Made by a program: the position numbers and the translations under genes. The notes under the pieces are model-generated. The model did not search any database. It had not been told where the DNA came from and saw only the letters and a program-made list of their open reading frames with translations. DNA of 64,000 bases from Zoroaster sp. YZ-2022. Taxonomy: Eukaryota; Echinodermata; Asteroidea; Forcipulatida; Zoroasteridae. The stretch covers positions 24,515,825 through 24,579,824 of the forward strand of contig CM055816.1 of NCBI GenBank assembly GCA_029582265.1, read 5' to 3'. This document shows, in pieces, positions 24,850 through 47,814 of this stretch (its first letter is position 1; the number at the start of each line of letters is the position of its first letter).

Positions 24850-26774
24850 TTGGATACGGTCGAGATCCAGTACAATACGCCGAGCCACATCGTTGAGAGC
24901 GCTAGTTATTACCAATGGAACCATTATTGGCCATTGTGTATTGTTTGTTCCTCACACGCGTCTCCCATAGTCACGTTCCCTATCTACAGGCGGTATTGTT
25001 ATGATTGGAACCATCACATTGTAAGGAACCTGTCTACTGGTTCAGTTGTACATGTGCCTCATTCTGATTCTCATAGACTTGTGTACAGGAAAGCAAAGAT
25101 GGCCGCGGTATAATACTTAAAAACCTACTGCACCTATGTGATAGAAAGATTAGGTTTACAACGGATATGGATGTGTAAGAAATGGTAATATTTTTTGCAT
25201 TTTCCAAGATGTTTTGGCTAATTGATGTTTGAAGGGGTTCACATAAATCCCACGTCAGAAAAGTGTTAAGCCTGCTGCTGCTGGTCGCAACTAAATCTAT
25301 CAGCTTGAACAATTATGTGTCTTTTGTTTACTACTGTGGACAATATGATCCATTATAATGTTAAAGTTTTTTGAATTTAAGCATGGTTAGGGATAAGCCC
25401 CATCTTATCAGTCATTCTGACATCTTGTCCTTAAATAACCGTCTGAAAATATTACAACTCAACAACTTTGGTTTTAACTTTTAAAATGCGTCTGCTGACA
25501 GTTGTATAGAGAAAGTTTGGTTATAAAAATACACACTGGTATTTGATATCATTTCCAATTAAACTTACACTGCACTAATACAACTACAAACATGTGATGG
25601 ATTTTGCTTTTATTTTCAATTGTTTGTGTTTCATTTGTATAATTGCTTATGTTTGAAAGCTATATACAGAGCACACACAGCCCAGACTGTGTTTGGCGTC
25701 AGTGAAACCCGTTTTGATAGGATCGATTCTACTTTTATGTTAAGAGCGCCCTCTTCAGTTCAGATGTCACGAAGTGGATGAAGTATAGCATGTATAAAGG
25801 TTTTTGTCCTAATGTTCTATGTACCACGTGTCTTTCTTTGAGTATGCATTTCTCTATGAGTTAGATTTTTGCTTATTCAAGAAAACAAAATTTGAACTTT
25901 ATGATTTTTTGTTTTTCATGAATTCATCCCGTTATTTTTTTTAAATGATGATCTTGTCAATTAATTGTAAACATCAAATCGTCGAATTTTTTACATAGTG
26001 ACGAACCGGAAAAAAATGCGTTACGAGTATACGTTTAACAATCAAGGTCAAGTGTGGAAATTATTAATAATTTATTTATCTTTGGACTACTGAAATAAGT
26101 AGGATATCAAATAAAGGTTATCAGTTTTATTGGTCAATATTGTGCGCTCAGTTATTAAAACAATTTAACAAGACTCGTTGTCACGTGATGACGTTGGAGC
26201 CTTTGGCTCGTTGCCAAAATGTGGCCCGCGCGCGAGCCGTTAAAGTGGCTTACGTCCAGCATGTTTTAAGTCGGACACATTTTCGCTGATAGTTTCTTGG
26301 CTTTGTTAATGTGTTAATAAGTACCTGGTTGGTACTTTGCTGTGTTTACTTTGTTTAAAATGTTGATTATCTATGTGTAACAATGACTTGAACTTATTCG
26401 TCACTATGTAAAAAATCAAATGCCGCGTGGTCGCCTATTCGTCACTTCAACGCACGCACAGCGTATAATATCTGTACTTTCTTATTCATCACTTTGTAAT
26501 AAAATAAAAGTGCGGCCAGCGCTTATTCGCTACCCATGTACGTACTCTGTAAGGCCGATATTACCAATAAGTATCGACAAACGAATGCAATTCCTAACGA
26601 AAAGATATAAATACCTTAGATCCATGGTTTTTCTTTGTGTTACATTGCAATACAAACTAAAAACTCGTTGTTTTCTACAGATTACGCTGCTCAGTCTATC
26701 CGTGGTGATAGCTGGTACCAGCCGTCCGCGCACAGTGAAGGGAAACAAATCTGTTATGCAAGATGACCCCATAG
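24850..26774. repeat. Segmental duplication, copy B, left of the Polinton
   Basis: 25,431-26,774 matches 1-1,405. The preceding module 24,900-25,430 matches 2,190-2,500 of copy A. B lacks the palindromic MITE near 26,320 and has about 70 extra bases near 25,695-25,765. Confidence 0.9.
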
Positions 26775-27166
26775 AGTAGTATGTCAGATGGGCGTCCTGG
26801 CCCACCTACCTAAAAAGGGGCGTTACTTGGTTTTAAATTTAAAAAAGGGGCGGGGAGGTATGAAATCTTAAAAAAGGGCGTCCTGGCCCACCTACCTAAA
26901 AAGGGGCGTTACTTGGTTTTAAATTTTAAAAAGAGGCGTTACTTGGTTTTAAATTTAAAAAAGGGGCGGGGAGGTATGAAATCTTAAAAAGGGCGTCCTG
27001 GCCCACCTACTTAAAATGATTTTTTAGGGGAATTCCCTTTTATGTGGATGACGTCATTAACATATTTTAAAGATTGTTGTGGGTAGGTAGAGAGGTATGA
27101 AAAGTTAAAAAGTAAAAAAAAAAAATGAGAAATCGATTTAATATTTTGTTGAGTAATTGTAGAGAT
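26775..27166. repeat. Left terminal inverted repeat of the Polinton
   Basis: 392 bp, inverted relative to 42,796-43,221. The outer part is two direct sub-repeats of roughly 85 bp (GGCGTCCTGGCCCACCTAC, then GGGGCGTTACTTGG, then GGTATGAAATCTT). The inner part ends with an AATGAGAAATCGATTTAAT box next to the ATG of the first gene. The arms differ in sub-repeat number, which explains the 34-bp length difference. Confidence 0.95.
27120..27147 (+). promoter_or_regulatory. Early-type promoter box in the TIR
   Basis: AATGAGAAATCGATTTAATA lies about 18 bases upstream of the ATG at 27,165. It is present by symmetry in the right TIR before the clamp gene, and as two variants before the polymerase gene (27,551-27,570 and 27,586-27,610). 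Confidence 0.55.
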
Positions 27167-27521
27167 GACAACAAAGATAAATTTTTGGATAAATACTGTC
27201 GCTCAACTGAAAGAGTATGTTGAGGCAAACAATATAACGGTAGTACGAGCATCTAGCAAGAATGGTAAAGTGAATAAAAAAGATTATTTATTTAGTATTA
27301 GAAAACATTTAAATGCTTTACCAGTTGAAAAGATTATTCCATGCGAATGGCTTTTAGTTGGTAAAACAGACAAATGTTTAAAAGCTAGTGTGTGTGGTGG
27401 GAATTTTTGTGGGTTGCATCAATGGAAACTTAAATGTGGAAAATCTATTCCTCTTGCGTGTATGAAATGTGGTATGGGTACAAAAGCAAAAGCACAAATA
27501 TGTACTAGATGTAAAGGTTAA
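27165..27521 (+). CDS. Small SAP-like and cysteine-rich (zinc) protein
   Basis: 118 residues, intact, starting at the inner edge of the TIR. Residues about 8-50 (LKEYV...SKNGKVNKKDY...IRKHL) resemble the repeats at the N-terminus of the neighbouring polymerase, a SAP/HeH-like DNA-binding fold by pattern. Residues 60-118 hold nine cysteines and a histidine (C60, C71, C77, C82, H85, C91, C99, C102, C113, C116), with two CxxC pairs, so zinc binding is likely. Position, early-type promoter box and shared domain suggest a replication or terminal DNA-binding role. Not identified with a named family. Confidence 0.75.
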   Translation: MTTKINFWINTVAQLKEYVEANNITVVRASSKNGKVNKKDYLFSIRKHLNALPVEKIIPCEWLLVGKTDKCLKASVCGGNFCGLHQWKLKCGKSIPLACMKCGMGTKAKAQICTRCKG

Positions 27522-27536
27522 ATTTTGGTTTACTAT

Positions 27537-27612
27537 TTTTATAACTTATAAAAATGAGAAAATGATTTAACTTTGTATAACTTATAAAAGTGAGAAATTG
27601 ATTTAATATTAT
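27537..27612 (+). promoter_or_regulatory. Duplicated early-type box before polymerase gene
   Basis: Two direct repeats of about 36 bp, each TATAACTTATAAAA followed by TGAGAAA and TGATTTAA, end 16 bases before the ATG at 27,628. They match the TIR box, implying a shared regulator or initiator. Confidence 0.55.
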
Positions 27613-27627: not shown

Positions 27628-30600
27628 ATGGAGAGAATTGAAGAAAGAAGAAGATATTTATCAAAATGGACAAAACCAATGTTGAAAGAGTTTTCACGTG
27701 AGCACATTGGAGAAATAATTTTTACGAAAAACAGCAAGGGTAAAGTTGATAAACGCGCATATTACAAAGGTGTAAAAAATTATTTAAAACAGCATAAACC
27801 AAAGCCATTGTCTAAATTAAGTTTAGTAGAATTGAGAGAGCTTATAGCGGCTGAAAATATTGGGCTGCCAGAACGCGGCGCGGGTAAAAGAGCGCAGTTG
27901 TTAAAGAAAGATTACGTAGCCGCTATTAAAAGGTTTTATGGTCAAGAAAAAGAGTTGAGATTTAATACTCTAATTAACGGTGGAAGATATTTACGCGAAC
28001 GAAGAATGGTCGTTCCGCTGAATCATAGCAAAGAAAAAGATTTAAACATTTTTTGGGAAGCGGTAAAACCAAAGATTAGAGCCAAGTTTGACATAGATTT
28101 ACAAGAGTTAGGGTCGTACAAGTTTATGATATATATAAGTATTAAATTACATAAAGAAAAACTAGACGGTACGATCGATTTTGCTGAGCCAAGATTTCAT
28201 AATAATAGGCAAATCGTTTTATTGAATTTGGATGACATTGAAAATGTATTTAATACAGTTTTTTCGCAAATTCAAGAGGCTTTAGAAAAATGGACTCAAA
28301 ATGGTTCTGGATGGGAGGTAGATCGTATTGTTGATATGAATATTACTTACGCGAGATATCAACCTTTAAGAGGTGGTTCTTATATCGAGCTATGTAACTA
28401 TATAAAAAATAAAAAAGCGTGCATCAACGTCAAAAACGACGACGATAATTGTTTGCGATGGGCGCTGCGTAGTGCTCTTTTCCCCGCAAACAATCATGTT
28501 TATAGAATGTCTAAATATCCGACGCAGGATGGTTTAAATTTTAATAATATTGATACACCTACACCGATTAATCAAATTAAGCAAGTAGAGAAACAAAATT
28601 GTATAGCAATAAACGTTTTTGGTTGCGAGTCAAAAACAATACTAGTTTACAAACTTAGCGATCAACTCGCGGAACTAGATCGTATAAATTTATTATTAAT
28701 TCACAAAGAAGAAGAAGAAGGAACAAGATCTCACTACGTTTGGATTAAAGATATAAATAAATTACTTCACGATCAAACGAAACACAATCCTCGTAAACAT
28801 TTTTGTTTAAGATGTTTACAGGGTTTTTCAACAAAAGCGTATTTCGAAAATCACGTAGAAATGTGTAAGGGAATAAACGACAGACCAACAACGGTTGTGA
28901 TGCCTGTAAAGGGTAAAAACGACAAGTTAAAGTTTATAAATTATCATAAAAAGATGAAAGTTCCTTTTGTTATATATGCCGATTTTGAAAGTATTATTAA
29001 AAAGGTTGATGATGTTAATAATACGAATACTAAAAAACTACAAGAACACGTCGTTTGCGGTTATTCGTACGTAGTCATTCGTTGCGACGGTGAAAGTAGT
29101 TCTCCTATCGTTTACCGAGGAGAAGATGCGGCTGAACATTTTTTAACTGAATTAGAAAAAGAAGAAGAAAACATCAACGAGATATTTAAAAACTTTCAAA
29201 AATTAATAATAACTAAAGAAGATGTAAAACATTTTAAAAACGCTAAACAGTGTTGGATATGTGAAAGAATTTTTTTAAAAGATGATGAAGCCAAGTTTAG
29301 AAAAGTACGCGACCATTGTCACATTACCGGCAAATATAGAGGTGCAGCGCACAATTGTTGTAATTTAAAATTAACTTTAAAACCAGAGAAAACTTTTATA
29401 CCGGTTGTATTTCATAATTTACGAGGTTACGACTCGCACCTCATTATGCAAGCCGCGGGTAAAACGTTAGGAAATCTAACGTGTATTCCAAACAATATAG
29501 AAAAATATATTTCTTTTTCAATCAGTCAACTACGCTTTATCGACAGCGCTCAATTTTTATTAGCTTCGTTGGATAAACTCGTAAAATCAAATAATTATTT
29601 TCCAATTACTAGCAAGTTTGAACCCGATTTATCCTTACGAGTATATGGATAGTTTTAAACGATTTGAAGAAGTACAACTTCCTTCTATAGAATCTTGTTA
29701 TAGTAGTTTAAACGATGAATACATTACTAAAGAACAATACTCGCATGCAAAGAAGATATGGGATATATTTAATTGTAAAAATTTAGGAGATTATCACGAT
29801 TTATACGTGCGTACCGATACTTGCTTATTAGCGGATGTATTTGAAAATGTTCGTAATACTTGTATAAAACAATATGATTTAGATCCGGCCAATTGTTATA
29901 CTAGCCCTGGATTAAGTTGGGACGCTTTATTAAAACACACAAAACAAACTTTAGATTTGTTTACAGATATTGATATGCATTTATTTATAGAAAAAAGGTA
30001 CACGAGGAGGAACGTGCATGGTAAGTAAAAGATACGCTAAAGCAAACAATAAATATTTACCCGATTACGATTTATCAAAACCATCGAGTTACATTTTGTA
30101 TTTAGACGCCAATAATTTGTACGCGTACGCGATGAGTCAACCTTTACCAACGGGTAATTTTAAATGGATGACTAGTAAACAAATTGACAGACTCGAGAGA
30201 GAAGGATTTAAAAGTAATAAAGGATGTATTTTAGAAGTTGATTTGGAATATCCTAAAGAATTACACGATTCTCACGACGCATTTCCGCTCGCGCCAGAGT
30301 CGTTGGTAGTACCGAAAGAATGGATGTCACCGTATCAGCTCAAGTTATTAGGAGACAAACCAGCTCCAAACGCCTCAAAATTAGTTTTAAATTTATACGA
30401 TAAACGTAATTATGTACTTCATTATCGTAATTTACAATTATATTTACAACTCGGTATGAAACTAACTAAAATTCATCGAGTTTTAGAATTTGATGAATCG
30501 TGTTGGATGAAATCATACATTGATAAAAACACACAACTCAGAAAAGACGCAACGAGTGATTTTGAAAAAGATTTATACAAACTCATGAACAATTCAGTTT

Positions 30601-31357
30601 TTGGAAAAACGATGGAAAACGCGTTAATGTGAATTTGAAGCGGTTAAACGATGAAAAAGCCGAAAATCAAATTCGCAAACTTGTTGCAAAACCAAATTTT
30701 GCCGAGGCAAGAATTTTTGATAACGATTTAGTAGCGATTCACATGCACAAAACAAAACTTTTACTCAACCGCCCAGTATACGTAGGAATGTCTATTTTAG
30801 AATTATCTAAACATTTAATGTATGATTTCTATTACAAACATTTAAAGCTAAAATACGGTGAGAGGTGTAATTTACTGTATACGGATACAGATAGTTTGTT
30901 ACTTGAGATTCAAACGGAAGATGTATATAAAGATATGGAAGAAGACAAAGATTTATACGATTTTAGTAATTATGACAAAGGTCATTTCCTATTTTCCGAA
31001 GAAAATAAAAAAGTGATTGGTAAAATGAAAGACGAGACTGCGGGAACTTTAATCTCTGAAATTGTATGTTTAAGACCAAAAATGTATTCGATACTTTTAT
31101 CGAATGAAAAAGAAATAAGAAAAGCTAAAGGTGTTAAAAAAACAAGTTTTAAAAGAAAATAATAAACACGAAACATATAAACAAGTTTTATCTCAAAATA
31201 ATACGCTACATCACAAGATGAATTTTATTAGGCATGAAAAAATAGATTATTTTCAACTCGAGTAGATAAAATATCGTTATCTCCTTTAGACACACAAAAA
31301 TATATTTTAGAAAACGGAATACATACTTTAGCTTACGGTGACTACAGAATTACTTAG
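27628..31357 (+). pseudogene. polB: Protein-primed family B DNA polymerase, broken
   Basis: The gene spans about 1,240 codons. Residues 10-105 hold two SAP-like repeats. Residues about 270-375 contain DDDNCLRWAL (C275) and SHYVW (H369), an OTU-like Cys-His layout. A CxxC...H...C zinc knuckle follows near residue 393. Exonuclease motifs: DFES (D452), NLRGYDSH (D602) and YVRTD (29,804-29,818). Polymerase motifs: A LDANNLYAYAM (about 30,100), [11 protein letters not shown] (about 30,577), C YTDTDS (about 30,888). The C-terminus near 31,290-31,357 is typical of Polintons. The frame changes near 29,630, 29,995 (A run), 30,608, 31,150 and 31,255. The gene meets the integrase tail to tail with 8 bases shared. 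Identity certain; activity unlikely as assembled. Confidence 0.96.
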
Positions 31358-32355
31358 CTACTTTTTGAGGTGGATTTTCCGTATCTCGAGGAATAATTTG
31401 TAATTCTTCTTTTACAAAACTACGCGCAGGACCCGCGTCTAAATAATACAAGATGGGTTGATTAGCACCTTGTATCATTTTAGCTATTCTATAAATGTTT
31501 ATACTCCATATAGGATCGGTAGCGCGACGTCTCGTATCTTTTTCAGCTTCACCAGGTGCGTATAAATAACGAACTAAACTGTTGTTTAGAATTCGTTTTT
31601 CTTTTTTAACGACGCTAACTGGTGAGGCTGGATTTTGCTCTACAACACTCATTTTAATCGCGTCTTTTGGTTTTAAATTTATAAGACGCATTGTTGTATT
31701 ATTTAATGCTTTTACAACAGCCGGTAATCTTTTAACCCATACTCGAGATCTCTTTTCTGTTGCTATTTCTTGCGCGTATTGATGAGAAAATAATCTTTCG
31801 GCTAAAGTTCTATTAAATCGCTCTACTATACCTTGAGCTCTATGATTACCCACCTCGCCTCTTTGAATTTTTACTTTGTGTTTACTCATTAATACATTAA
31901 CGCTAGACATAAATTATTTTCCAGGATCAACTTGCAGAATTTTAGGCCAAGTAAGAGAGCTACGTTTATAAAAAATTTCAAATGCATTACTGACTTGAAT
32001 AGCTGTTTTATCGGTTAACGGCTCTGCTTCTTTATATCTACTAGCTTCATCTACAACAGTTAACGCGTACTTGTACGTCTTTTTAGCTATTGTATCATGC
32101 GGAAGAAACAATAAATCTGCTTGATGAACTTGATTTGGCGCTTGCGTGTTACTATTTGAACTAGTAGGTCTTGGAATATATTTAGGATAGGGTAAATAAA
32201 TTTGCCATAGCGCTTGCTTTTTAATCCAACGTTTAACTACTTTTTTTATTTACTTTTGTTTCTTTAGCTAATTTATTAATTGCGTCTAAACCTTTGTAGT
32301 ATCCTTTTGGACTATAATATGCATTTTGTAGCATTAGTTTTATTTGTTTATCCAT
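31350..32355 (-). pseudogene. int: Retroviral-type DDE integrase, broken
   Basis: The ATG is at 32,355 (MDKQIKLML). After about 36 codons an A run near 32,245 changes frame. The core then shows the first catalytic Asp in HQADLLFLPHDT, the second in LQVDPGK, and Glu in GIVERFNRTLAERL. A single TAA at 31,914-31,916, two codons before MSSVN, interrupts the core in frame. The C-terminal part (about 31,350-31,560) carries IWSINIYRIAKM and DAGPARSF, as in other Polinton integrases. The enzyme inserts the linear element by strand transfer and makes the short target duplication. It is convergent with the polymerase gene. Confidence 0.95.
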
Positions 32356-33974: not shown

Positions 33975-34072
33975 ACAAGTAACCTATAGATGACTTAACA
34001 AGTAGCCTACTACAACTTATAGATGACTTAACAAGTAACCTACTACAACTTATAGATGACCTAGTCTATAAT
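33975..34072. repeat. 33-bp tandem repeat, about three copies
   Basis: Units of TATAGATGACTTAACAAGTA plus CCTACTACAACT repeat between the coiled-coil gene and the ATPase stop codon; the last unit overlaps the final ATPase codons. It could act as a transcription end or simply be slippage. Confidence 0.8.
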
Positions 34073-34687
34073 ATCATAACCGGTAGGTTGATCCGTTTTT
34101 AAAAGCAATTTGCGATGTTTAACTCGTTTTAATTGTTCATGAATTTCAATTCTTTTTTCTTTCGTAGGTACGACATCGTTTTCTCGAAGACAATCTTCGA
34201 ATGAATCTCTATCTTTACAATAAAATAAACATACCCACTTGAGTTGTTCTCTAAAATCTTTTAAAACGCTATTATATTTTTGTGATAAAATCCAACAAGA
34301 GTGTCTAATATGTCTCCCTGAAAAAGCCAACCGCACCAACTCGTGCTGCCGCTGGTATTTTGAAAAAGTTTTATATTTTAATTCTTTACTCGCGCTACAA
34401 TCGTCGATGATAAACAACGTCTCATTTCCTTTAAGCGCATCACTATAAATTTTTATCGCTTTGTCTAACGACATGTTTTCCAAGTCGTCAAAGTACACTC
34501 GCTCGTCGTTATAAAACCAGTTTCTTTTTTTATATGTATCATTATCAGCGATTGTAGGGCATAAAATAACTATACATTCAAAATATTTAAAATATTCTCC
34601 TTCTAGCAATGATAAAATAAATTCAGTTTTTCCGCAGCCTGTTTGTCCACAAATTAACGCCACGTGTGGATATTTTGGTAAAAACAT
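34061..34687 (-). CDS. atp: FtsK/HerA-type genome-packaging ATPase
   Basis: 208 residues, intact. Walker A is GQTGCGKTE (about residues 14-22) and Walker B ETLFIIDD (about 88-95). A conserved region with FSGRHIRHSCWILSQ (about 121-135) follows, matching the sensor region of packaging ATPases of Polintons, adenovirus-like and NCLDV-type viruses. The enzyme would pump DNA into the capsid. It is followed upstream by the major capsid gene on the same strand, the usual arrangement. The intact frame amid broken neighbours argues for recent activity. Confidence 0.95.
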   Translation of the reverse strand: MFLPKYPHVALICGQTGCGKTEFILSLLEGEYFKYFECIVILCPTIADNDTYKKRNWFYNDERVYFDDLENMSLDKAIKIYSDALKGNETLFIIDDCSASKELKYKTFSKYQRQHELVRLAFSGRHIRHSCWILSQKYNSVLKDFREQLKWVCLFYCKDRDSFEDCLRENDVVPTKEKRIEIHEQLKRVKHRKLLLKTDQPTGYDIID

Positions 34688-34735
34688 TTGTTTTTGCTTT
34701 GATTTGCCTTTTAATATTAAACAAGAAATTACAAG

Positions 34736-36010
34736 TTAAAATATAACACTATGATATCGATTGTTTTCGATATTGAGTTGCGCATCCATAATAAAATAAG
34801 TATACATTTCTAGTACACCCGCATTTTCACCTTGTTTTTCTATTTGAAGAGTAATTCCCTCTGATAGATTCTTTAATCGCCTCCCGCTACCGTGTAATGT
34901 GTTATCATCGCTCGTTCTCAAATCTAAAAATAAACCGTATTTATCGAATAAATAATCAGCTTGTTTAACGTTAGATAAATTTAATGCTTTTACAATTTGT
35001 ATAGCGTGTTGACTTTTAGAATCACCAAAATATTTTGAAATTTCTTCCCATTGTTGATACCTTTTCTGGCCGTGCGCGTAAAGCTGATTAGGTACACCTT
35101 CGATCGTAATTGAAACTTTTTCAATTTTTGGATTATAGAATACATTTGATTCTTTTTCATTCGGTTCTTTGAATAGAAACAAGATGCCTTTCATACTTTT
35201 TGCGGGAGTATTTAAATTTATATTCCACATTGTGTCGCTTTTGTTTAAAAGTGTGACGCTCTGTAGCTTTACGCGATCATACAATATACTCAACCCGTTG
35301 CTGTATTGATTTTTAATTATTCGAGCGATTTCTGGCATATGCACAACTTGATATTCAAAAGATATTCCGCTTATAATATATTTTGCACTATCATCACTGC
35401 TTTTAATCACGCGCGAAAATTGATTAAACACGAGATTGTAAGTTAATCGATCTCCAATACCCGTTTGATAGTAGGAATGATCGGTTAACAATTCAAAATC
35501 TAATGGAATGTAATATCTATTTTTATAAGCATCAGCAATCGCCAAATCTTTTCCTTTATTTGCGGTAATATCCTTATCGCTAGCATTTATTCTTATTTTA
35601 GTTACGTTTGCATTTTCTATTCCTTGATATGCTAGATTTTCGCGCTGATCTTTAGTTAACCACTCATCTTTAAAACAATTGAATACATCCGCACGGTCTA
35701 AAGAAAATATTTAATTTCCCTCCATTTTAATTTCTATAATTTTTACGATCGCTCTACCAATATTTTGTACTAACGTTCTCGTATCATCATCCTCTCTAAC
35801 AAGATCAATATTGAAAGCCAATCGAACCGTCCCGGGAATTATAATATCATTTACTCCTAGATTAGGAAAGCGAATATTTAGTGTTTGTCCTTCTGTAATA
35901 GTACTTGGATTATTTGTTATACTGACTGACTGCCGTAACCCTTTCACTCCCATAGGCGTTTTTATACGTCGAAAAGGATCAAGCACATCTCCGTATATAT
36001 TACTCGCCAT
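34736..36010 (-). pseudogene. mcp: Double-jelly-roll major capsid protein, one in-frame TAA
   Basis: 424 codons from the ATG at 36,010 to 34,736 in one frame, interrupted only by a TAA at 35,711-35,713 (codon 100, after IKMEGN). The N-terminus has DPFRRIKTPMGV. The middle, after the TAA, includes FKDEWL and YYIPLDFELL. The C-terminus ends MDAQLNIENNRYHSV. These features and length fit Polinton major capsid proteins, which form trimeric capsomers of an icosahedral shell. Its start lies 31 bp from a rightward gene across an AT-rich bidirectional promoter. Confidence 0.9.
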
Positions 36011-36041
36011 ATTTTATAAATATATTTATATAATAATTTTT
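36011..36041. promoter_or_regulatory. Bidirectional late-type promoter
   Basis: The 31-bp spacer contains TTTATAAATATATTTATATA, nearly its own reverse complement, between the ATG codons of the major capsid gene (leftward) and the membrane protein (rightward). TTTATAAA-like boxes also precede the genes at 33,654, 33,931, 39,311 and 39,346. Confidence 0.55.
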
Positions 36042-36503: not shown

Positions 36504-36509
36504 TTGTAA

Positions 36510-37830
36510 ATGGAAGGAAACCCATTTACAGAGTTGGATCCAATGTATAACCAACCCAAAGAAGAAGATGAAAATATGGATGAATATTCATATCAACAAT
36601 ACGATGAAAGTATAAAAATACTAGAAAGAGAAAGATTAGAAAGCGAAAAAAGGGTAAATGAAGAAATATCAACAAGAAAAGAGCGACCAACTTTATCTTT
36701 AAGAGATACGCAACTTAGATTAACAGTCAATGCTTTTTATGAAAGTATAGGTCATAAAGACGCTATAAAAGAATATAATAGTTTTATAGAAAGATTAGAT
36801 AGTAAAAAAAAGAAGTATACTCTATTTTTAAAAAGGTGATAAAGAAATACAACTAACGAATTTAGGAAGAGGAAAAGAGGGTATCTTTTTAAAGGTAAGT
36901 GGAATAACCGGTTTAACTTTAAATGATTTAATAGCTTTTGGAGAAACTAAAAAAGCTATAGTAAATGTTATAGAAGAAGCAGAAAAACCAATAGAAAAAC
37001 CAACCGCTCAAACAGGTAGTGGTAGAAGGTTACCAGCTATACCGATACAACTGGTAGAAAAATCTAAAAAAGTGGAAGAAGCCGTCGAAATGACGGTGAT
37101 AGTGCATACGAGAGATCAAGAAATTCAAACAGAATTAAACTTTTCACTGCGGGAAATAGAGGGGCTCAATAAAGCCTTACAAACAACTAGAGGTAATCTT
37201 GAATTAAATTTAGCTGAATTAAGCAAACTCGATAAAGAAATATATATTCTTCAAAAATAAATTTTTGATGGTAGACGACGTGGATTAAAAGAATTAACTG
37301 AAGAAAATATTAAACAGCTGCGAGAAAAACAAGAAGAAAGACGAATGAGATTAGAAGCAGCGAGTGAGAATGAGTTCAAACTTCGTAGTCAAATTAATAG
37401 AATTAAAGAAACTTGTCAAATTGTTTTAGAAAGAGACGTTACGCTAAGAGATAAAATTCAAACTTTATTTAGAGAACAAGGTATAACGATCGTTAGTATA
37501 TTAACGGCGTTTGTTATGACTATTACCGCTATAGGCAAAGCAATCGCTAATGCTGTAAATTCAGCTATACCTAAACCAACACCACCCAAGCCCATTCCAC
37601 CAGAACCCACGCCTACACCAAAACCACCAGATAGTGGTGGCGTAAAAGAGTGGATACAAAAAACATTAAAAAATCTAGCTAATGTATTATCTAAACTAGG
37701 AGCAAAAGCTTTAGCCGCTTTACCGGCTATTATAGGTGTAGTTGTAAATTGGTTATTTAAAACAGCCTCTAGCGTTGTTACATGGGCAGCGGAACATTTA
37801 TGGATAGCAATAACTGGAGTCGGAGTTTAA
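36510..37830 (+). pseudogene. Long coiled-coil protein with hydrophobic C-terminus, broken
   Basis: It starts 6 bases after the previous stop, so probably cotranscribed. The N-terminus has LRDTQLRLTVNAFYESIG. The frame shifts in an A run near 36,830 and continues to 37,257. A single TAA at 37,258-37,260 stands in frame, and the frame goes on to 37,830. Central coiled coil (LREIEGLNKALQTTRGNLELNLAEL), then LFREQGITIVSILTAFVMTI, a Pro-rich hinge and a hydrophobic end (LAALPAIIGVVVNWLF...WAAEHLWIAI). Such proteins recur in invertebrate Polintons without assigned function. Confidence 0.75.
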
Positions 37831-37862
37831 ATTTTTACATATATACGCAGGCAGCGGCCTTT

Positions 37863-38935
37863 TTAAAATAACAATTCATAAATCGTATAAATGCCGATCA
37901 TAGTTAAAACCGCAAAACCAATAATTAAAGCATTTTTTTCTTCTTTATGACTAATATCACTTGTAGGGACATCTTTTAAAGAGTCTTCTTTTATTACACC
38001 TCCACTATCTAGAGTTGGTGTGTCTTCTTTTATTGTAGAGCTCAATACTGATTCATCTTGCACAACATCTACATGTTTAGCAAAGACTGCGTCGCTGAGT
38101 ATTGATTGTTCACCGTCGTGAGGCAAAGGTAAAATAGAAGGAGGAACAGGTGTTGAGTTTGTATCTAAATTTGAACCTAAAGATAAATCACTCGTTGCGA
38201 TTAATAAATTATTGTTGTATCCAGCGTACGTACCTATTCGTAAATTCATATCACTAGGCGTCATATATAAATTTTCTCCGATAGCAAAATTTAATTGCGA
38301 ACGAGCGTATTGTAAAACATCTTGATATCGTTGAATAGAAGATTGTAAATCAACTGGAGAATCAATTTCTGCATTTACTATATTTATAAATTCTCGCTGC
38401 GCGTCTAAACCGGTACCACCCGCTAAAAAAGAAGTTTTGATTGCGATTGAGCTCCTAAAATTGCATAAACGTACGTTCTTATAGAATCGTTAATTCGTTC
38501 CGTACCTATATCCGTAAAACCTCGAGCTAGCGTTAGCGATAATATAAATTTAGTCCACGCTGTTTTTACGCTATCAGATTGTAAAATGTAACCTACTCGA
38601 ATAGTATGTTCTTTACGATTATGCTCACCATCATCAAAAGCCATTCTTTTTTCACTCGCTTCAAAGTTTGAACCAAGATTGTTTAGAGGAATAGGACCAG
38701 TATTGCGATTTAAAATAGAATTGTCGTAGTTGTGCCCAGGTACTGGATCGTATCTTTTACCTACATTCCTCCAAAAATAAGCGGTACCTAATCCATCGCT
38801 GTATGCATCAACGCGTTGTTTCCAATTATTTGATGTTGATGTATGAAAGTCTTTACATGTTCTTTTATACGCGCTTACGTCTATATTATTATCAAACGCG
38901 CTAAAATAATTTTGAAAAGATGTAGGACAACTCAT
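37863..38935 (-). pseudogene. Unidentified virion-like protein with C-terminal anchor, frame broken
   Basis: About 358 codons from MSCPTSFQNYFSAF at 38,935. The frame is lost at an A run at 38,424-38,430 and resumes in another frame with AGGTGLDAQREF, ending at 37,863. The first half is globular and rich in Tyr/Asn; the second has an acidic Ser/Thr-rich linker and a C-terminal transmembrane helix (ALIIGFAVLTMIGIYTIY). Convergent with the coiled-coil gene. A surface or membrane-linked virion protein is a guess from layout. Confidence 0.6.
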
Positions 38936-38975
38936 TTCTTTGAGTAGTCGTCTTATTTGATAATAGACGTGAAAT

Positions 38976-39311
38976 CTAAAAAAAACTACGAATCATCATA
39001 TTTGAATGATTTAAATGTTGATAACCCACGCCGCATCCCGTTGAACTACAATACGTTGCAAAATTTATTTGATTTTGATAAAAAAATTACGGATTATGAT
39101 GCCAATCATTAACTACTTTTTGATTATGAACCGCTGGTAACTTGTAGTTGCTAAAAACATCATCAAAATGTGCAGTAAAAAACTCGTTCTTGTTAACGTA
39201 AATGTTTATACTCGTTAAATCGTTAGCGACAAAATTTTGAGGTGTAGTAAAATTTCCAGATTGCGGATATGCATATGTAAAATTACTCTTGAATGCTAAT
39301 GGAAATGTCAT
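38976..39311 (-). pseudogene. Small unidentified protein, possible in-frame TAA
   Basis: The first 74 codons from the ATG at 39,311 (MTFPLAFKSNFTYAYP) end at a TAA at 39,087-39,089. The same frame then stays open for 36 codons with cysteines (YCSSTGCGVGYQ) to a TAG at 38,976. It may be one gene with a nonsense change or simply a 74-residue protein. It is divergent from the gene at 39,346 across a 34-bp AT-rich spacer. Confidence 0.45.
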
Positions 39312-39345
39312 TTATTATTAAAAGTTTATAATTTATATATAATAA
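39312..39345. promoter_or_regulatory. Divergent late-type promoter
   Basis: A 34-bp spacer with TTTATAATTTATATATA separates two ATG codons on opposite strands, as at 36,011-36,041. Confidence 0.5.
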
Positions 39346-40029
39346 ATGACATTTTATACTGTTGAATTAGAAATTGAAAAAAATGGCGGACAAGCTAAAT
39401 TATGCGATGTTATCGATAATCGAAAAGGCAATCTCGCAATAGCATTACTTAGCGCAAACATTTGGGTAGGATATTACAACGTGCGTAAAAAAGAAAAAGT
39501 AACATATCGTACGGGGGGCGAGGAAGATGTTAGTAAGCCTGTAGAACCAGGACTTTACGATATTGAGGAAATTATTTATAAGATAATAAGACATAAGCCT
39601 TGGATTACGTTCACTATTAATAGAACAACGGGTGAGTACTTGATGATTTTGTCTCAAGAAAACAAATCCGTTAAATTTTCATCTGGGTTAGCTAATTTAC
39701 TCGAGCTTAATAATGAATTTTTAAATGTTGGAGAATATTCTAAAAAAATCGATGTACATCTTTTTAAAATTTTATATATTCATTGCAATCAAATTTCTAC
39801 AACCGATAATTATTTTAATGGTAGTCCTAGCACCCTTTTAAACGCTTTTCCAGTGCAAAACGCAGCATTTGGCGATAGTTTATATAAATAATATATAAAC
39901 ATCTCGTTCAAGAAATTGAAATCAGATACTTTTGATGCGTTAAATTTTCAAATTAAAGATTCAAAACGAAGAGATATAAATAATCACGGTTTTCCCGTTA
40001 TTTTAAATCTAGAAATTCGAGAAACATAA
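39346..40029 (+). pseudogene. Candidate minor capsid (penton) protein, one in-frame TAA
   Basis: The frame runs from MTFYTVELEIEKNGG to a TAA at 39,889-39,891 (181 codons) and then continues in the same frame for 45 codons to a TAA at 40,027-40,029. The sequence is beta-rich with no membrane segment. It has YIHCNQIS and a C-terminal FPVILNLEIRE, matching the pattern I associate with the single-jelly-roll minor capsid protein of animal Polintons. Moderate certainty; a structure prediction would settle it. Confidence 0.6.
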
Positions 40030-40078
40030 ATGTTTAAATCTTTTTCGTTTTTTTAATCTCTTTACTAATAGTAAAATA

Positions 40079-40602
40079 ATGAGTGCGGTTATAGCGAGTA
40101 TTTATGGACCTGGTTACGCAGTGAGCAAACGAAAAGTTTTTATAGTAGCGGTGATATTACTAGAGACAGTGAAATTACACGGGCGTCATCTAGCGAAATT
40201 TATGATCATCATGGGTATCTTAACAGAGATGAAATTTTACAAACTGTAGTTCTAATTGAAAAATTTAATGTTATAATTGGATGGCACGCTCATTTTAAAC
40301 AACCTTTTTTCATGTTTAATGAAGCGCCAACGTACTGCTCTATTTTTACGCAATTTATTAAAACTGATAGTTTTGTTACCCATTCAGCGACGCGTGATTA
40401 TGCAGCTAACGTTTATCATATTCCTTCTCCAGAACGAAAAGAGAAATTTCATTTTATCGATAATGAAACGCAACATCTAAAGTATGAAATGTGTTTTAAA
40501 ATACAAAATGTACAAAACGTTTTTGTAGAAGCAACCTTTTTTGGCGCGTTAAATTCTAAAATCTGTTTTAATATAAAAATTAAAACTTTACCGTTAAATT
40601 AA
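40079..40602 (+). pseudogene. Unidentified Polinton protein, paralogue 1, frame broken
   Basis: It starts MSAVIASIYGPGYA. The frame is lost in a T run at 40,138-40,142 and continues to KTLPLN at 40,602, about 174 codons in total. The C-terminal third (MCFKIQ...VEATFFGALNSKICFNIKI) matches the end of the next gene. Upstream is a box, TTTACTAATAGTAAAATA, shared with two following genes. Beta-rich and unassigned; it could be a receptor-binding or decoration protein by analogy with diversified duplicate virion genes, which is speculation. Confidence 0.6.
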
Positions 40603-40637
40603 ATTATATGTTTAATCTTTTACTAATAGTAAAAATA

Positions 40638-41126
40638 ATGAGTGTAGTTATGGCGAGTATTTATGGACCTGGTTACGCAGCGAGCAAACGAAAAGTTTTT
40701 TATAGTAGCGGTGATATTACTAGAGACAGTAATCAAACTGTTGAAAAAGTGGACATGTAAAAAATGTTGAAGGACGCGAAATATTATATGAATATGAAGA
40801 TTTATTTTATATTTATTGGGAAAACAACGAGCATATTGGAGTAAATTTAATTATTCCAACTACAGAATATTCTAATTTTTATAGAATAACTACTAATGGC
40901 CGTTCAAGATCAATAGTTGAAAAACAATTACAGGAACTTAACTATGACTCGGAATCAATACCTATTAGCTTTGATAATGAACCAAAGCTTTTACTAATGT
41001 GGATTATGCTTTAAAGTAGAACAAAATAACTCTAGAAGAAAATTATTTGCTCAATTTGTTTTTTTCGGCTCTTTAGATACTGGAATATGTTACAATATGA
41101 AAATTACTAGTTTTGCATTAAATTAA
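40638..41126 (+). pseudogene. Unidentified Polinton protein, paralogue 2, frame broken
   Basis: The first 30 codons are nearly identical at DNA level to the preceding gene (MSVVMASIYGPGYAASKRKVF). The middle is unrelated or strongly diverged (YEYEDLFYIYWENNEHIGVN), and the end is again similar (CFKVEQ...FAQFVFFGSLDTGICYNMKI). The frame changes near 40,745 and near 41,005. This is a tandem duplicate with conserved ends and a divergent centre. Confidence 0.6.
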
Positions 41127-41152
41127 AATCTTTTTCTATTGTAATAAAAACA

Positions 41153-41806
41153 ATGAGCGTACCTATAGAATCAACGAATGTAATTTATCCAAATTTGACT
41201 CCTATGATGAATGATGCTAAAACATTTCAAATACAAAAAATCGATAGTATTCAAAAAGAATTACGAAATGAAAGAAACGAACGCGATGCTGTCTATAAAA
41301 AATATAATAAGATTATTAAAGCTTGTAGTATTGTAGAAACTCTCGCTGAATTGGGTTGTATGGGAGCGGGGGCTATCGGAATCGCTAGTATCGCCAGCGT
41401 TGTATCATCACCCGTAGGATTAGTTTTAGAAAGTTTAGCTTTAGGGTTTGGTGTAGGAGCGGTTGCTCTTAGATATGTAAAATATCGACTAGAAAAAAAA
41501 GCTAAAAAACATAATGAAATTAGAGTTTTAGCAGAAAATAAACTTAATACTATTCGTGATCATGTTTCTAAAGCGATTGAAGATAGTGTTATAAGTCAAG
41601 AAGAATTTAATTTAATCACCAAAGAGCAACATAAGTACACCGCAATGAGAGAAGCTATACGCCAAACTGCTAAATCAAAACCATCTAAAAATTTAGATGA
41701 ATTTAAAAGCGATGAAAATAGTGAAAATAAAAATCTAAAAGAAAATTCAGAGCAAAAAAAAAAAGATGTCATACATCTTGTAGAAAAAATTATGAGTTTA
41801 AAGTAA
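41153..41806 (+). CDS. Polinton protein with hydrophobic hairpin and coiled coils
   Basis: 217 residues, intact. An N-terminal coiled coil (IDSIQKELRNERNERDAVYKKY) is followed by a Gly/Ala-rich double hydrophobic segment (about residues 60-105: LGCMGAGAIGIASIASVVSS and GLVLESLALGFGVGAVAL), then the conserved KKAKKHNEIRVLAENKLNTI and a charged tail. This architecture is common in uncharacterised proteins near animal Polintons. A membrane-perturbing or scaffolding role fits the layout but is unproven. It shares the ACTATT/GTAATAAAA upstream box and the ATGAG start with the two genes before it. Confidence 0.8.
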   Translation: MSVPIESTNVIYPNLTPMMNDAKTFQIQKIDSIQKELRNERNERDAVYKKYNKIIKACSIVETLAELGCMGAGAIGIASIASVVSSPVGLVLESLALGFGVGAVALRYVKYRLEKKAKKHNEIRVLAENKLNTIRDHVSKAIEDSVISQEEFNLITKEQHKYTAMREAIRQTAKSKPSKNLDEFKSDENSENKNLKENSEQKKKDVIHLVEKIMSLK

Positions 41807-41888
41807 ATTTTACCGTAAATAAAAATTATTATGATAATGTAAAACGAGTAAAAACAACAGATAGACCTCCTCCCTATAATTTTAATTA

Positions 41889-42792
41889 TTAATCTTCATC
41901 TTCATCATTGTTTTTTTCTTTAATGTAAGCAGAAAGTCTCCCTAAATTTCCTACTGATACAACAATCTTTAACAGCCCATTTTTGGTGTGAGGAGCGTAA
42001 AATTGTATTTGCTTGTCTAAAGATGAAATTTTTAATAAAATGCTAAATAAAGCTGTAGCAAAAGTAGCTGAATAAGTTGGTTGTTGTTGTTTTTTATCAA
42101 AATCCCCCAATTCTAAAGCTACGCTGTAAAGACTTGAGTTATCGCTATAAAAACTAATGCAATCTAAATCGTACATGTCAATATTAATTTTTGTATTAAC
42201 CTGCAACATTTTTTTTAGTTTTAAAAAATCGCTACTTTCTACAACACGAGGATATCTATAAACATCATCGTCTGGTAAGCCAATTGTTTTCGTACTAACC
42301 ACTGTATTAATACTCACACTGTTAATTTCTCGTTTGTTTTTCACCGCATGATCCAACGATGCAAGTTTCAATATAAATTCGTTCGTTTTTAACGTAAATT
42401 ATCAAATATATTTTACGTTTTATAGTACGAGTCATTTTTTGTAAATGGTTTAAATTAACCGTACATTCAATTGGATTTTCACATTTAAATTCAATTTTTT
42501 TTTCTCGGTTTAATACTATATCAACGAGTATTCTTTCTGATTTATCTACCTCCCTACAATAAAAACCATTAGAATTAACTTTAAAAGTAACCTTTGACTG
42601 AATAGCCACTAAAGTGTCTATTAAAATTTTAAACGTATAACCCATTTTAATTTTCAAATAAAAATCATATTCAGTAGCTTTCTTCGGCGGCTGAGGTGCG
42701 CTAACTACATCATCATATTTTTTTAAATTTAGTTTATTAAATAACAACGATTCTTTCGCTGGTGTTAGTATTTCATATTTTTTGTTTTCCAT
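41889..42792 (-). pseudogene. PCNA-like DNA sliding clamp, one frameshift
   Basis: The chosen start is MENKKYEIL at 42,792, just inside the TIR; the longer frame to 42,867 lies in the repeat. N-terminal half: FKILIDTLVAIQSKVTF, FYCREVDKSERILVDIVL and CTVNLNHLQKM match the first domain of eukaryotic and viral clamps. Between 42,322 and 42,371 the frame changes. The C-terminal half has SSDFLKLKKML and ends LLKIVVSVGNLGRLSAYIKEK with an acidic tail, like PCNA domain 2. About 300 codons in total. Clamps raise polymerase processivity; one in a protein-primed element is notable. It faces inward from the right TIR and shares the early-type box with the left-end gene. Confidence 0.82.
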
Positions 42793-42795
42793 TCT

Positions 42796-43221
42796 ATCTC
42801 TACAATTACTCAACAAAATATTAAATCGATTTCTCATTTTTTTATTTTTTACTTTTTTACTTTTCATACCTCTCTACCTACCCACAACAATCTTTAAAAT
42901 ATTTTAATGACGTCATCCACATAAAAGGGAATTCCCCTTAAAAATCATTTTAAGTAGGTGGGCCAGGACGCCCTTTTTTAAGATTTCATACCTCCCCGCC
43001 CCTTTTTTAAATTTAAAACCAAGTAACGCCCCTTTTTAAAATTTAAAACCAAGTAACGCCCCTTTTTAGGTAGGTGGGCCAGGACGCCCTTTTTTAAGAT
43101 TTCATACCTCCCCCGCCCCTTTTTTAAATTTAAAACCAAGTAACGCCCCTTTTTTAAATTTAAAACCAAGTAACGCCCCTTTTTAGGTAGGTGGGCCAGG
43201 ACGCCCATCTGACATACTACT
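42796..43221. repeat. Right terminal inverted repeat of the Polinton
   Basis: 426 bp, the reverse complement of 26,775-27,166 with one extra short sub-repeat (TTAAAACCAAGTAACGCCCC). The outermost bases are CATCTGACATACTACT. Confidence 0.95.
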
Positions 43222-44965
43222 CATAGGGATAAGCAGATTATTGTTCGTTACTTTGAACACAAATCCAGATATTAGGTAGCGAAATAAAAGCAGAATTTAC
43301 GAATAAATGGGACTCAGTGACTTTCTTAACTCACAACAACAAAAATCATTTGCCAAGGCCGCGTTGGAATTGATTGCCCATTAACGAAAGCGAAAATAAC
43401 AAACTTCTACAATATCCTTTGCGCATCGATGATTGTTAATTTGACTGCATCAATCACGAAAAGATGCGAAACATTAAATTTTAGGATGACATAGTTGAAG
43501 TCATGAATGCCGAAAAACGAAATAGAACTAAATGCAGTATGATATGAACGAAATAAAAATTGTTTTTAAATCAATTAAATTAAATTAAACGCAACAGTAT
43601 ATAAAAAGAAACCCTGGATTGATTGGATCACTAAAACGGCGTGAATTTGAATGTTCTTGAACGAAAATTAACAAAAAGGTTTTGACATTGAACGGGAAAA
43701 ACTATTATATCCCCAGACAAAATACGATGTTTTGATTTAAAGCAATCATTGACTGCCAGGAAGTCAACTTATCCATGTTTTAATAGATCCTCATCACATT
43801 GAGGCCATATTTGTCTGGTAACCTGACAGCTAAATATAAATCAATATATGAGTTTGCAAGGCATCACACTATTTAAGACAACAGCCTCATTTCACACGGC
43901 CGCAGAGGAGATTTCGAGAAGTCCGCCATCGTCAAGCACTCGCACATCAAGGACCACCAAATCGACTGGCAGGCAGCCCAACTCATCACACCCATCGACA
44001 CATGGCACCCCAGACGCATCAGAGAGGCCATCGAGATCGTCAAACACGACACTGTGCCACAGGATATCGGCTTCTACATCAGCGACATTTGGCGACCACT
44101 ACTACAGACTGAAGGATCTTCTATATCCAAAGTCCATAACTCACCCGAGACTGAGGGATCTCCTATATCCTAAGTCAACCACCCTCCATCCCCCTGTGCT
44201 TGTCAACAACTGATTCAGTTCAGTGAGCACACACTCCTCTCCCCCAACCCCTAGGATCCTAGTCTCATAGTCTCACAGTTTCCCGCCTGCGCGCCTCAAC
44301 GAACTAATCCTCCAGCATCCATTCATGGGATGATCCTTATAATGAAGACACACAACACAGAGTAGGCCTAATATACATTTTTGTTGAATTTAATATTTTT
44401 GTTTTAAAGGTAGGTTATAGAACTGATATTTAAAAAAAAAAAAAAAAAAAATACAACTTAGTTGGTATAAAGGTGATGATGGTTATGATCTTCACAATAA
44501 ACTATTCAGTCTGAGCAACTGCTATTTTTAAGAAAGATATTATTTTCAAAACATTTTTTCCCTAAAGTTGATGATAACTATGAATGTATTAAACAAAATT
44601 TCAATAAAAATGATTCAAAGAGAAGCAGTTTTGCTAACATTTTACAAATATTGTTGTTCCATCCCTTCAACAATGCATATAATTAATCTGTCCTAAACTT
44701 TCATACCCGGGCCTGAGAATTGAAAGTAAACATGTGACAAATGAATGCCAATAAAATTGAATTCTTGATCAATCGTTTGTGACTGGTTCTTTTGAAATTG
44801 AATGAACTTAACGACACTTTAAATTGGAACGTACTTAATGTAACAATGGGTTGGGTTAAATGACGATAGAATACGCAACTTATGAATTTGAATGAGTATC
44901 TTTTTGATGATTGAATGATGATGTAAAGGAGTATTCATTTTCATATCAAATTGAATAAGTCGCGT
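43222..44965. repeat. Segmental duplication, copy B, right of the Polinton
   Basis: 43,222-43,727 matches 1,401-1,930; 43,728-43,886 matches 2,757-2,925; about 44,339-44,965 matches about 3,717-4,310. Between the last two blocks copy B carries a Penelope fragment where copy A has about 790 bp of other sequence. Confidence 0.9.
43893..44335 (+). mobile_element. Penelope-like element 3' fragment
   Basis: From 43,895 the frame reads HGRRGDFEKSAIVKHS, then HDTVPQDIGFYISDIW, matching the C-terminal endonuclease region at about 24,060-24,260, and ends at a TAA near 44,172. It is a different subfamily from that copy (about two-thirds identical by eye). The rest is 3' untranslated sequence. The ATG-initiated frame over this stretch is a shadow. 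Confidence 0.85.
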
Positions 44966-45805
44966 ATTAAATCACCCGATACTCCAAATGTGTGTCAGCA
45001 GATAACGTCTCAAAAGGATCAATTTCATCTTGCTATTAACAAGCACAGATTATAATCTGGTAGTCTGGATTACAATTGGTGTCGTTTTAAGTCAGTGGCA
45101 CATGCATATCGCGTAGCATGCAGCAATGGCACGCTTAATTCACACGGACGTATGGAATTCCATTACTGCCATTTAAACGGCGCATGTATGGCGTGAATGG
45201 TTTGGTCCCTAGCCGTTTGCGCCGTCAACGGCGCATAGTCGCGTCGTGCCGTCGCATAGTCGCGTCGTGCCGTCGCAATTTCGCGTCGTGCCGTTGCGTC
45301 GTGCCGTCGCATAGTCGCGTCGTGCCGTCGCATTGTGGCGTCGTGCCGTCGCATAGTCGCGTCGTGCCGTCGCATTGTCGCATTGTCGCCCGTGTTGATT
45401 GATGGTCCTTTAGCCGCTTACGCCGTCAACGGCGCATAGTCGCGTCGTGCCGTCGCATAGTCGCGTCGTGCCGTCGCATTGTCGCCCCGTACCACCAGTT
45501 TGACTGAATTATCCAGTGCTTGCCAATAGGTGGCGCTGTCTTTACTTCAGAGGTACTCTCACCTTTTTCCCCGCGACGACGAATAAGTCTCAAAGACAAA
45601 GTAATAGATGGATGTTATTTTACGCCAGTTGGGTCTGGAACAGCTGATACAGGAGTTTGAAGAGAACGGGGTGTGTTACTATGTACTTGTTACGTGTTTA
45701 TTTAAAGGAAATCGGGAAAAAAAGGGGGTAAAATGTTGTTAAGGCTTAACCTAGGCCTTTCCTAGACGTATGAATGTTGACCGTTAGCCACTAAGGGTAA
45801 TTCCC

Positions 45806-46140
45806 ACTAAGACAGTCGTTTTCCCGGTTCCGTATTTTTTCCGGTTCTGGATAGCTGCAAATTAAAAAATCTATTTAACATGTTAATCCATGTCGCTTCA
45901 GAAAACAATTGATAGTTTACTGAGTTTGCTTCCAAACGGCTAGTAAGAGTTTAAAATTGGGGAAGAGTGCAGTGGCGATCGTATACTGCACTCTTTCCTA
46001 AAATTGTTACACATCCTAACAGTCACAGAGACCAGACAGTCTGACAGTATTATTTTTGACCTAAACAGTCATTGTTCGTGGACTATTGCAATTTAAAGCA
46101 AACTAAGAGATATCCAGAACCGGGAAAACGATTGCACAGT
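45806..46140. mobile_element. Nested inverted-repeat element in the foldback centre
   Basis: TCGTTTTCCCGGTTC near 45,826 and CCGGTTCTGGATA near 45,850 pair with TATCCAGAACCGGGAAAACGA near 46,110 (split: TATCCAGAACC, GGGAAAACGA). A small hairpin, AGAGTGCAGT/ACTGCACTCT, lies inside. MITE-like; target site unclear. Confidence 0.5.
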
Positions 46141-46923
46141 GGTTTAAGACCGAGACATTTCGTTAAAAAAAAAGAGTTATCACATTAGATTACATGGGGG
46201 GTCATTCCATGTTAAATCAAATAGTTTTTCGAAAACGTACCAAGGTAATCTCAGGTTTTGATGAAGCTTCATAATGATAATCTTTTGTTGATACAGAAAA
46301 CTCACACAAATTTAGGTATCAAAAAATAAATATATGAAATAAAAATGTGCGCTTCAAAAATCAGAGAAGTATACCTTCATGCACTCCCAATAACTGACAT
46401 GGATTATGAAGCTAACTCTTTGTATGTGTACCTGATGGTCACAATAGCTTATTGTGATAATATTTGTCGACATCAGAGAAAGTAACCTTGCTGGGACCCC
46501 AAGTGCATGCACATGTATGTACACTGAACTGAAATCTAAACACTATTACAAAAGTGTGATAGGCCACTGTATACTGTTTGGTTGTACCTTTTTTTAATAA
46601 ACCATTTTACAACATCTTCAAGTGTCTATAGCCAGTGTTGTACTCGAGACCTTTTTGAGGTGGTATAGATTGGTATCGGTTCTGAGTACTGACTAATAAA
46701 TGAACAACAGTATCGGTGTCTGCAATCACATGTTTTCTACAAATACACAAATATTTGCGAAAGGTCCATTCTTAATTTTGTCACTTTTTAGCACACCTGT
46801 CTTCTCAATCACTCATACTACTGTTCATTTGTTAAAGTCATATAATCGGACCTCAGAGTCATGTTACTCAGATTTGATTTTAACCATATCCTCTTATATT
46901 TTACTTTCTGTGTGTTTGTCTAA

Positions 46924-47135
46924 GGGGTCGTTCACAGTTATCAACATTTTCACGAGCGTACAAACCGTAAGCTGGGGGAGGGGGTCTGCGGCCGGTGTAC
47001 GCTTTGTAAAAACAAACAAAATGTTGATTTGAAATCAACATTTTATTTCGTACGATTTTAGGTGGAGAGAGGGGGTCCGTAAAAAGTGTACTCTTTGTAC
47101 GCTCGTGAAAAAGGTTGATAATTGTGAATGGCACC
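46924..47135. mobile_element. PIF/Harbinger-like MITE, TAA target site
   Basis: 212 bp with inverted ends GGGGTCGTTCACAGTTATCAAC and GGTGCCATTCACAATTATCAAC, flanked by TAA at 46,921-46,923 and 47,136-47,138, the 3-bp duplication of PIF/Harbinger elements. The centre contains the perfect palindrome AATGTTGATTT/AAATCAACATT. Nested inside the foldback element. Confidence 0.65.
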
Positions 47136-47814
47136 TAAGAAAGGTCTCACTATCTATACCATTGATTAATACATGTACATACACATTTTACCCCTTTTTT
47201 TTATACCGATTTCCTTTAAATAAACACGTAACAAGTACATAGTAACATACCCCGTTCTCTTCAAACTCCTGTATCAGCTGTTCCAGACCCAACTGGCGTA
47301 AAATAACATCCATCTATTACTTTGTCTTTGAGACTTATTCGTCGTCGCGGGGAAAAAGGTGAGAGTACCTCTGAAGTAAAGACAGCGCCACCTATTGGCA
47401 AGCACTGGATAATTCAGTCAAACTGGTGGTACGGGGCGACAATGCGACAATGCGACGGCACGACGCGACTATGCGACGGCACGACGCGACAATGCGACGG
47501 CCCTATACAAGCAGTACAAAACTATGCGACGGCACGACGCGACGGCACGACGCGAAATTGCGACGGCACGACGCGACTATGCGACGGCACGACGCGACTA
47601 TGCGCCGTTGACGGCGCAAACGGCTAGGGACCAAACCATTCACGCCATACATGCGCCGTTTAAATGGCAGTAATGGAATTCCATACGTTGTGGTCCTACT
47701 AGTACAGTAGTAGTAGTACTAGTAGTATTATAGTATGATTATGAAGTGAACCCTAAGTACTAAAGTAGGCCTACTCGTCCTATCATTTTTTTTTCTCAAT
47801 CGGACCACCTGGCC

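Follow-up and report, generated by a model that had tools for sequence, protein, structure and literature searches.

A PCNA-like sliding clamp gene beside the terminal inverted repeat of a Polinton in Zoroaster sp. YZ-2022

The stretch of DNA analysed here, "the window," comprises 64,000 nucleotides of contig CM055816.1 of Zoroaster sp. YZ-2022 (G000:C1:24515825-24579824), and the host genome searched alongside it amounts to 1.00 Gb in 616 contigs. Within the window, a Polinton of 16.4 kb spans positions 26775-43221, its ends reading AGTAGT...ACTACT and a terminal inverted repeat (TIR) lying on each side. Against the right TIR sits a gene for a PCNA-like sliding clamp, distributed over two minus-strand frames, 42322-42867 (start used 42792) and 41889-42398, which overlap by 77 bp. 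The clamp and the boundaries of the element are as follows:

42322..42792, minus strand: clamp N half, first PCNA domain; PF00705 match (E = 9.2e-10) over residues 46-137, that is 42382-42657; predicted PCNA fold
41889..42398, minus strand: clamp C half, second PCNA domain with acidic tail; stop-to-stop frame; 37% identity over 117 aa to database protein P0001; predicted PCNA fold
26775..27166, plus strand: left TIR, begins AGTAGT
42796..43221, minus strand: right TIR, ends ACTACT; inner edge 3 bp ahead of the start codon used for the clamp
26770..26774, no strand: target-site duplication CATAG, left
43222..43226, no strand: target-site duplication CATAG, right

In the N half, the PF00705 (PCNA_N) profile reaches 38.8 bits against a cut-off of 20.3, and PCNA chains of the PDB are matched as well. 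The C half, which terminates in GNLGRLSAYIKEKNNDEDED, on its own matches no Pfam family above cut-off and no PDB sequence; its alignment to the second half of P0001, a single comparison, has an E value of 4e-23. Both halves align to intact viral-type PCNAs (P0001, the Marseillevirus LCMAC102 PCNA and P0003). The predicted models have predicted local distance difference test (pLDDT) scores of 79.4 for the N half and 78.9 for the C half, with best Foldseek E values of 4.7e-6 and 2.6e-6, and among the matches listed (50 per half) all are PCNA entries in the PDB, with query template modelling (TM) scores of about 0.5-0.65. A profile of seven intact copies from elsewhere in the genome, all seven of which contain PF00705, aligns to PDB PCNAs, to 3p91 with an E value of 3.7e-13 and to the three-copy chain 3k4x with one of 2e-30; both clamp domains are indicated by the predicted models of each half and by a profile alignment running across the two. 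The original prediction had read two clamp domains and an acidic tail into these overlapping frames and had placed the clamp in a Polinton, adjoining its TIR; both claims hold, the profile search giving a clamp match for the N half and the fold prediction giving clamp folds for both.

Together the frames make up a single gene, broken in the window copy, and not two genes. Searching the genome with each half (the best 150 of 538 candidates for the N half, the best 150 of 617 for the C half), we found the C half adjacent to the N half, in the same order and on the same strand, in 92 of the best 150 N-half matches; among these, 50 lie in one stop-free open frame of 282-371 aa and 42 do not. Two separate genes or a programmed frame change are therefore not favoured, since 50 of the 150 listed N-half matches join both halves in a single frame and a copy with 98% identity to the N half has an open frame. 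The window Polinton is damaged in several genes, the polymerase and the clamp included.

That the element is a Polinton/Maverick follows from its TIRs and target duplication together with its genes for a family B2 polymerase (PolB), an integrase (rve match below cut-off) and a packaging ATPase. The left and right TIRs are identical at 391 of 396 aligned bases, with 36 gap columns of which 31 form one gap. The target-site duplication of 5 bp, CATAG, was judged by comparison with a second copy of the target repeat, near position 1400 of the window, which no insertion interrupts; the usual Polinton target duplication is 6 bp. The remaining genes are:

27165..27521, plus strand: left terminal small open reading frame (ORF), zinc-ribbon-like (under the Pfam cut-off); its start, like that of the clamp, lies at the inner TIR edge
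27628..31162, plus strand: family B polymerase of protein-primed type, in several frames in the window copy; PF03175, 4.9e-13, on 29991-30629
31350..32249, minus strand: integrase, two pieces; PF00665 (rve), 4e-6, 27.5 bits, below the cut-off of 32.6
34061..34735, minus strand: packaging ATPase; PF04665 (Pox_A32), 4.9e-11
34736..36013, minus strand: two frames, candidate major capsid protein on the strength of position alone, with no Pfam match
41153..41806, plus strand: neighbour ORF, inward of the clamp, found in 20 of 20 fetched clamp loci

The N-terminal piece of the polymerase (27628-29652) also contains an endonuclease VII-like stretch (PF02945 at 3.9e-4, below cut-off; PHROG endonuclease VII at 5.8e-5).

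The clamp belongs to a family that is spread through the host genome in company with Polinton genes; all genome counts of clamp and PolB matches are lower bounds. The PF00705 search scored the best 150 of 328 candidates, all above cut-off, and of these at least 150 matches three are host PCNA exons, one is the window's own and 146 are viral-like, a label checked in 20 only. There are at least 205 distinct loci on 22 contigs in the PF00705 and N-half lists, and at least 208 loci in the N-half and C-half lists. From the 146 we fetched the best 20 by score, which are not a random sample: relatives of six ORFs (37261, 37863, 38426, 39346, 40075 and 41153) lie inward of the clamp, in order, in 20 of 20. 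The clamp is whole in a single frame in 12 of the 20, while L028 is without the start of the N part; relatives of the candidate capsid protein are present in eight, the remaining stretches ending earlier. The same linkage was seen from the other end of the element, in a search with a PolB piece that scored the best 150 of 3387 candidates. A clamp on the opposite strand lies 6-30 kb downstream for 27 of the best 150 PolB matches, 16 of the 27 at 11.4-12.3 kb; the control geometries gave 0 for the same strand, whether downstream or upstream, and 2 for the opposite strand upstream, and shifted controls gave 0, 0, 0 and 1.

The Polinton population itself is very large, with 3387 first-look PolB candidates, and 20 of the best 150 lie in stop-free frames of 1176-1316 aa. 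Clamps of a second subfamily (L009, L010, L012, L015-L017, L021-L023 and L025) have a long extension at the N terminus that contains DKSKF-like segments, in several cases more than once.

Judged by its substitutions, the clamp frame is under selection. In nine chosen deep pairs the ratio of nonsynonymous to synonymous changes (dN/dS) of the clamp core is 0.29-0.50, with upper 95% limits of at most 0.71, and a core simulated as neutral to a distance of 0.45 gained 9.8 stops on average, none of 300 simulations remaining stop-free. Eight basic residues (K54, K118, R121, K124, K126, K191, K192 and K254 in L011 numbering) are invariant in seven Polinton and three giant-virus-type clamps; in the models they map on or just after four predicted helices, in positions predicted to face DNA. 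The binding loop is likewise kept: I169, P172 and Y176 are invariant in 7 of 7 intact copies and align with the IP and the Y of a PCNA of solved structure.

The original prediction had also spoken of an early-type box at the TIR. A box, ATGAGAAATNGATTTAATATT, is found with at most three mismatches four times in the 64 kb, against 0.08 expected, once at the inner edge of each TIR and twice ahead of PolB:

42817..42837, minus strand: box ATGAGAAATCGATTTAATATT before the clamp gene
27125..27145, plus strand: that box again, ahead of the left terminal small ORF
27554..27610, plus strand: two variant boxes before PolB, 27554-27574 with three mismatches and 27590-27610 with one

The two TIR matches are not independent, being copies of one sequence; the left terminal ORF and the clamp gene each have their start codon at an inner TIR edge. 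The box may mark early genes. Its presence here stands, then, whereas its early role is something we infer and its absence from related loci (below) narrows its reach.

We consider it probable that this gene, optional but selected in part of a large Polinton population, codes for a PCNA-family sliding clamp of two domains, in the full explanation that includes the role and the giant-virus transfer proposed below. A number of results pull the other way. The predicted folds are not independent of the sequence match, because the models were built on alignments of PCNAs. PF02747 (PCNA_C) was absent, by Pfam, from the C half and from 7 of 7 intact copies, and L011 did not reach the cut-off of the NCBIfam equivalog TIGR00590 (52.9 against 99.1 bits); on sequence, the clamp is a divergent member of the PCNA family rather than an equivalog. 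The young pair L011-L013 has a dN/dS of 0.51 (limits 0.29-1.01), which is not decisive, and over all pairs of the 12 whole copies the ratio runs from 0.18 to 1.35, the extremes, the high one among them, being near-identical pairs. The box was absent, at up to four mismatches, from the 20 related clamp loci, whose stretches do not reach PolB, and for that reason looks subfamily-specific. All three complete linked PolBs proved to have no canonical PCNA-interacting protein (PIP) box, and no conserved one turned up in the other element ORFs scanned. The available part of one study (PMC3511435) describes an Entamoeba Polinton-type polymerase that its PCNA does not stimulate and that is without a canonical PIP box. 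Lastly, of eight hand-picked elements with open PolB and no clamp in our lists, six were informative and two (L035 and L036) were not, and in four of the six (L034, L037, L038 and L039) ORF 41153 is present with no clamp at that end.

Because these four have an open PolB and no clamp, the clamp is dispensable for some Polintons and is a variable gene. The other two informative elements (L032 and L033) do carry an intact clamp. Three of the four clamp-free elements (L037, L038 and L039) end in a zinc-ribbon gene, and a zinc-ribbon gene also lies between the clamp and ORF 41153 in 18 of the 20 fetched loci, the exceptions being L011 and L013, as in the window. There are thus three right-end arrangements: clamp alone (window, L011 and L013), clamp plus zinc-ribbon gene (18 of 20), and zinc-ribbon gene alone (L037-L039).

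The common view is that protein-primed polymerases supply their own processivity. The PIP box in the polymerase for which the original prediction had proposed to look appeared neither in the window copy nor, in canonical form, in the linked PolBs: strict PIP matches in frames of at least 60 aa of the window element number three, none of them in PolB. The most PIP-like candidate, QPVLEDFY near 36375, was rejected, its Q being replaced by K or E in the relatives that cover the site cleanly. An APIM-like (AlkB homologue 2 PCNA-interacting motif-like) RWALR, present in 3 of 3 PolBs, was set aside as part of what we take to be an OTU-like cysteine motif. In the text available, phi29 polymerase is described as owing its processivity to TPR2 (PMC11071308). 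Given the missing PIP box and these findings from PMC3511435 and PMC11071308, as far as their accessible text goes, we infer rather than observe any use of the clamp by the Polinton PolB.

As we picture it, the clamp would be made early, together with the polymerase, would form a three-fold ring loaded by the host's replication factor C (RFC), and would hold replication or repair enzymes on the element DNA. Host PIP-box proteins include FEN1, ligase and Pol delta. Since the linked PolBs examined have no canonical PIP box, the likelier partners would be PolB through a non-canonical contact, or these host proteins, finishing, filling or sealing the element DNA. The clamp might instead act as a decoy or modulator, binding host PIP-box proteins or RFC and so disturbing or redirecting host replication instead of serving the element polymerase. 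This we judge unlikely, if the strongest of the alternatives: the PIP-less linked PolBs, the kept binding loop and the optional nature of the gene would all suit it, whereas a mere decoy would not need the basic residues kept on the predicted channel helices, and the box common to clamp and PolB speaks against it as well.

As to origin, the original prediction had left the choice between a captured host gene and an ancestral viral one. The N half matches three proteins in a database of 5.8 billion: P0001 (84 bits), the Marseillevirus LCMAC102 PCNA (68 bits) and P0003. Against the PDB it scores 17.6 bits with human 4d2g, 23.1 with yeast 4yhr and at most 40.4 with any one-copy PCNA chain (archaeal), and the profile comparison favours the Marseillevirus-like PCNAs, with a score of 317 against 193. 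Searches of IMG/VR with P0003, P0001 and A4 gave no match. With the profile of the seven intact copies, no protein was matched at E 0.001, which says little, because P0001, found by the N half alone, was also missed.

The tree has 47 rows, made up of seven of the 12 intact clamps, a selection of the database proteins (25 of 85 and 12 of 35), both window halves and a partial host PCNA. In it the window halves group with the Polinton clamps (100/100), on the side of P0001-P0085 (99/94). P0001-P0085 are labelled "giant-virus" on the basis of long contigs and two named members, and P0041 bears an archaeal contig name; P0086-P0113 serve only as a second PCNA group, their eukaryotic label being unproven and probably wrong (the host PCNA lies far from them). 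The Polinton clamps nest weakly inside P0001-P0085 (forks 90/90 and 84/67), on a long branch of 1.51 changes per column, with the host PCNA on a long separate branch. Approximately unbiased (AU) tests reject no alternative: p is 0.064 for the clamps with the host PCNA, 0.32 for the giant-virus-type set as one clade, 0.24 for the clamps with the P0086 group and 0.12 with both. In the accessible text of PMC12198294, that study's own PCNA tree is also weakly resolved. On these comparisons, the most likely source of the clamp is a giant virus akin to the Marseillevirus-like viruses, from which the gene would have been transferred.

Capture of the host PCNA coding sequence by the element, followed by fast divergence, is disfavoured because the nearest relatives are giant-virus-type PCNAs and the host PCNA stands on its own branch. 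The AU test allows clamps and host PCNA in one clade, and the long clamp branch and the partial host row leave some room for it; yet the N-half scores and the profile score of 317 point to P0001 and the Marseillevirus-like PCNAs, and the host encodes its PCNA elsewhere, in a separate gene with several exons, so we give capture little credence. An ancestral gene, held by Polintons before giant viruses arose and then lost by most, seems to us equally improbable: the AU test allows the giant-virus-type PCNAs as one clade and the Polinton clamps outside it, whereas the trees place the clamps, if weakly, inside P0001-P0085, and the accessible text of the literature searched reports no clamp for other Polintons. 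Chance similarity, or a host gene merely beside a transposon, is refuted for practical purposes by the colinearity of all 20 fetched loci, the near-zero geometry controls and the place of the clamp between TIR and element genes.

Elsewhere in the window, a foldback-like element lies beside the Polinton at 45148-47688, with long inverted repeats (arms of 291 and 168 nt, 93-99%) built of short GC-rich repeats, and two tandem repeat arrays occupy 55991-56418 and 56577-56964, with spacings of about 21 and 27 bp.

Among known systems, the Marseillevirus LCMAC102 and LCMAC101 PCNAs (P0002 and P0040) and their mostly unnamed relatives in P0001-P0085 are listed with PF00705 and without PF02747, like the Polinton clamps, with which the Marseillevirus-like PCNAs share a common core over 253 profile columns at 32-35% identity. 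They differ in setting: the LCMAC102 and LCMAC101 PCNAs sit in large viruses, the Polinton clamps in 16-kb elements, one subfamily with long N-terminal extensions. The host's own PCNA (C9, same genome) belongs to the same family but has several exons and is not the nearest relative of the Polinton clamps. As described in the available part of PMC8491892, thaspivirus NSV1 is likewise a small replicon in which a PCNA accompanies a protein-primed PolB on a linear genome with TIRs, but this virus has an archaeal host and a spindle-shaped virion; the likeness is one of description. Vertebrate Mavericks/Polintons share AGT repeats at the TIR ends, pPolB, integrase, ATPase and accessory regions, whereas the portion of the text searched mentions no clamp or PCNA, its single "clamp" being the name of an author (PMC8097293). 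In a protist with giant-virus and adintovirus insertions, PCNA is one of the domains for which endogenized viral regions are enriched, the carrier being unspecified in the text available (PMC11244446), and in the accessible text of the open-licence literature searched no PCNA is assigned to a Polinton.

A bolder reading, which we hold less likely than not, is that a Polinton branch may have gained a giant-virus clamp that altered its replication or finishing, by recruiting host PIP-box enzymes or by working with a PIP-less PolB, so that clamp-using and clamp-free forms of a single protein-primed system would coexist in one genome. A selected clamp in a eukaryotic protein-primed element, with clamp-free kin in the same genome, offers a natural paired comparison of what a clamp contributes; and the giant-virus affinity, if true, would record gene flow between giant viruses and Polintons.
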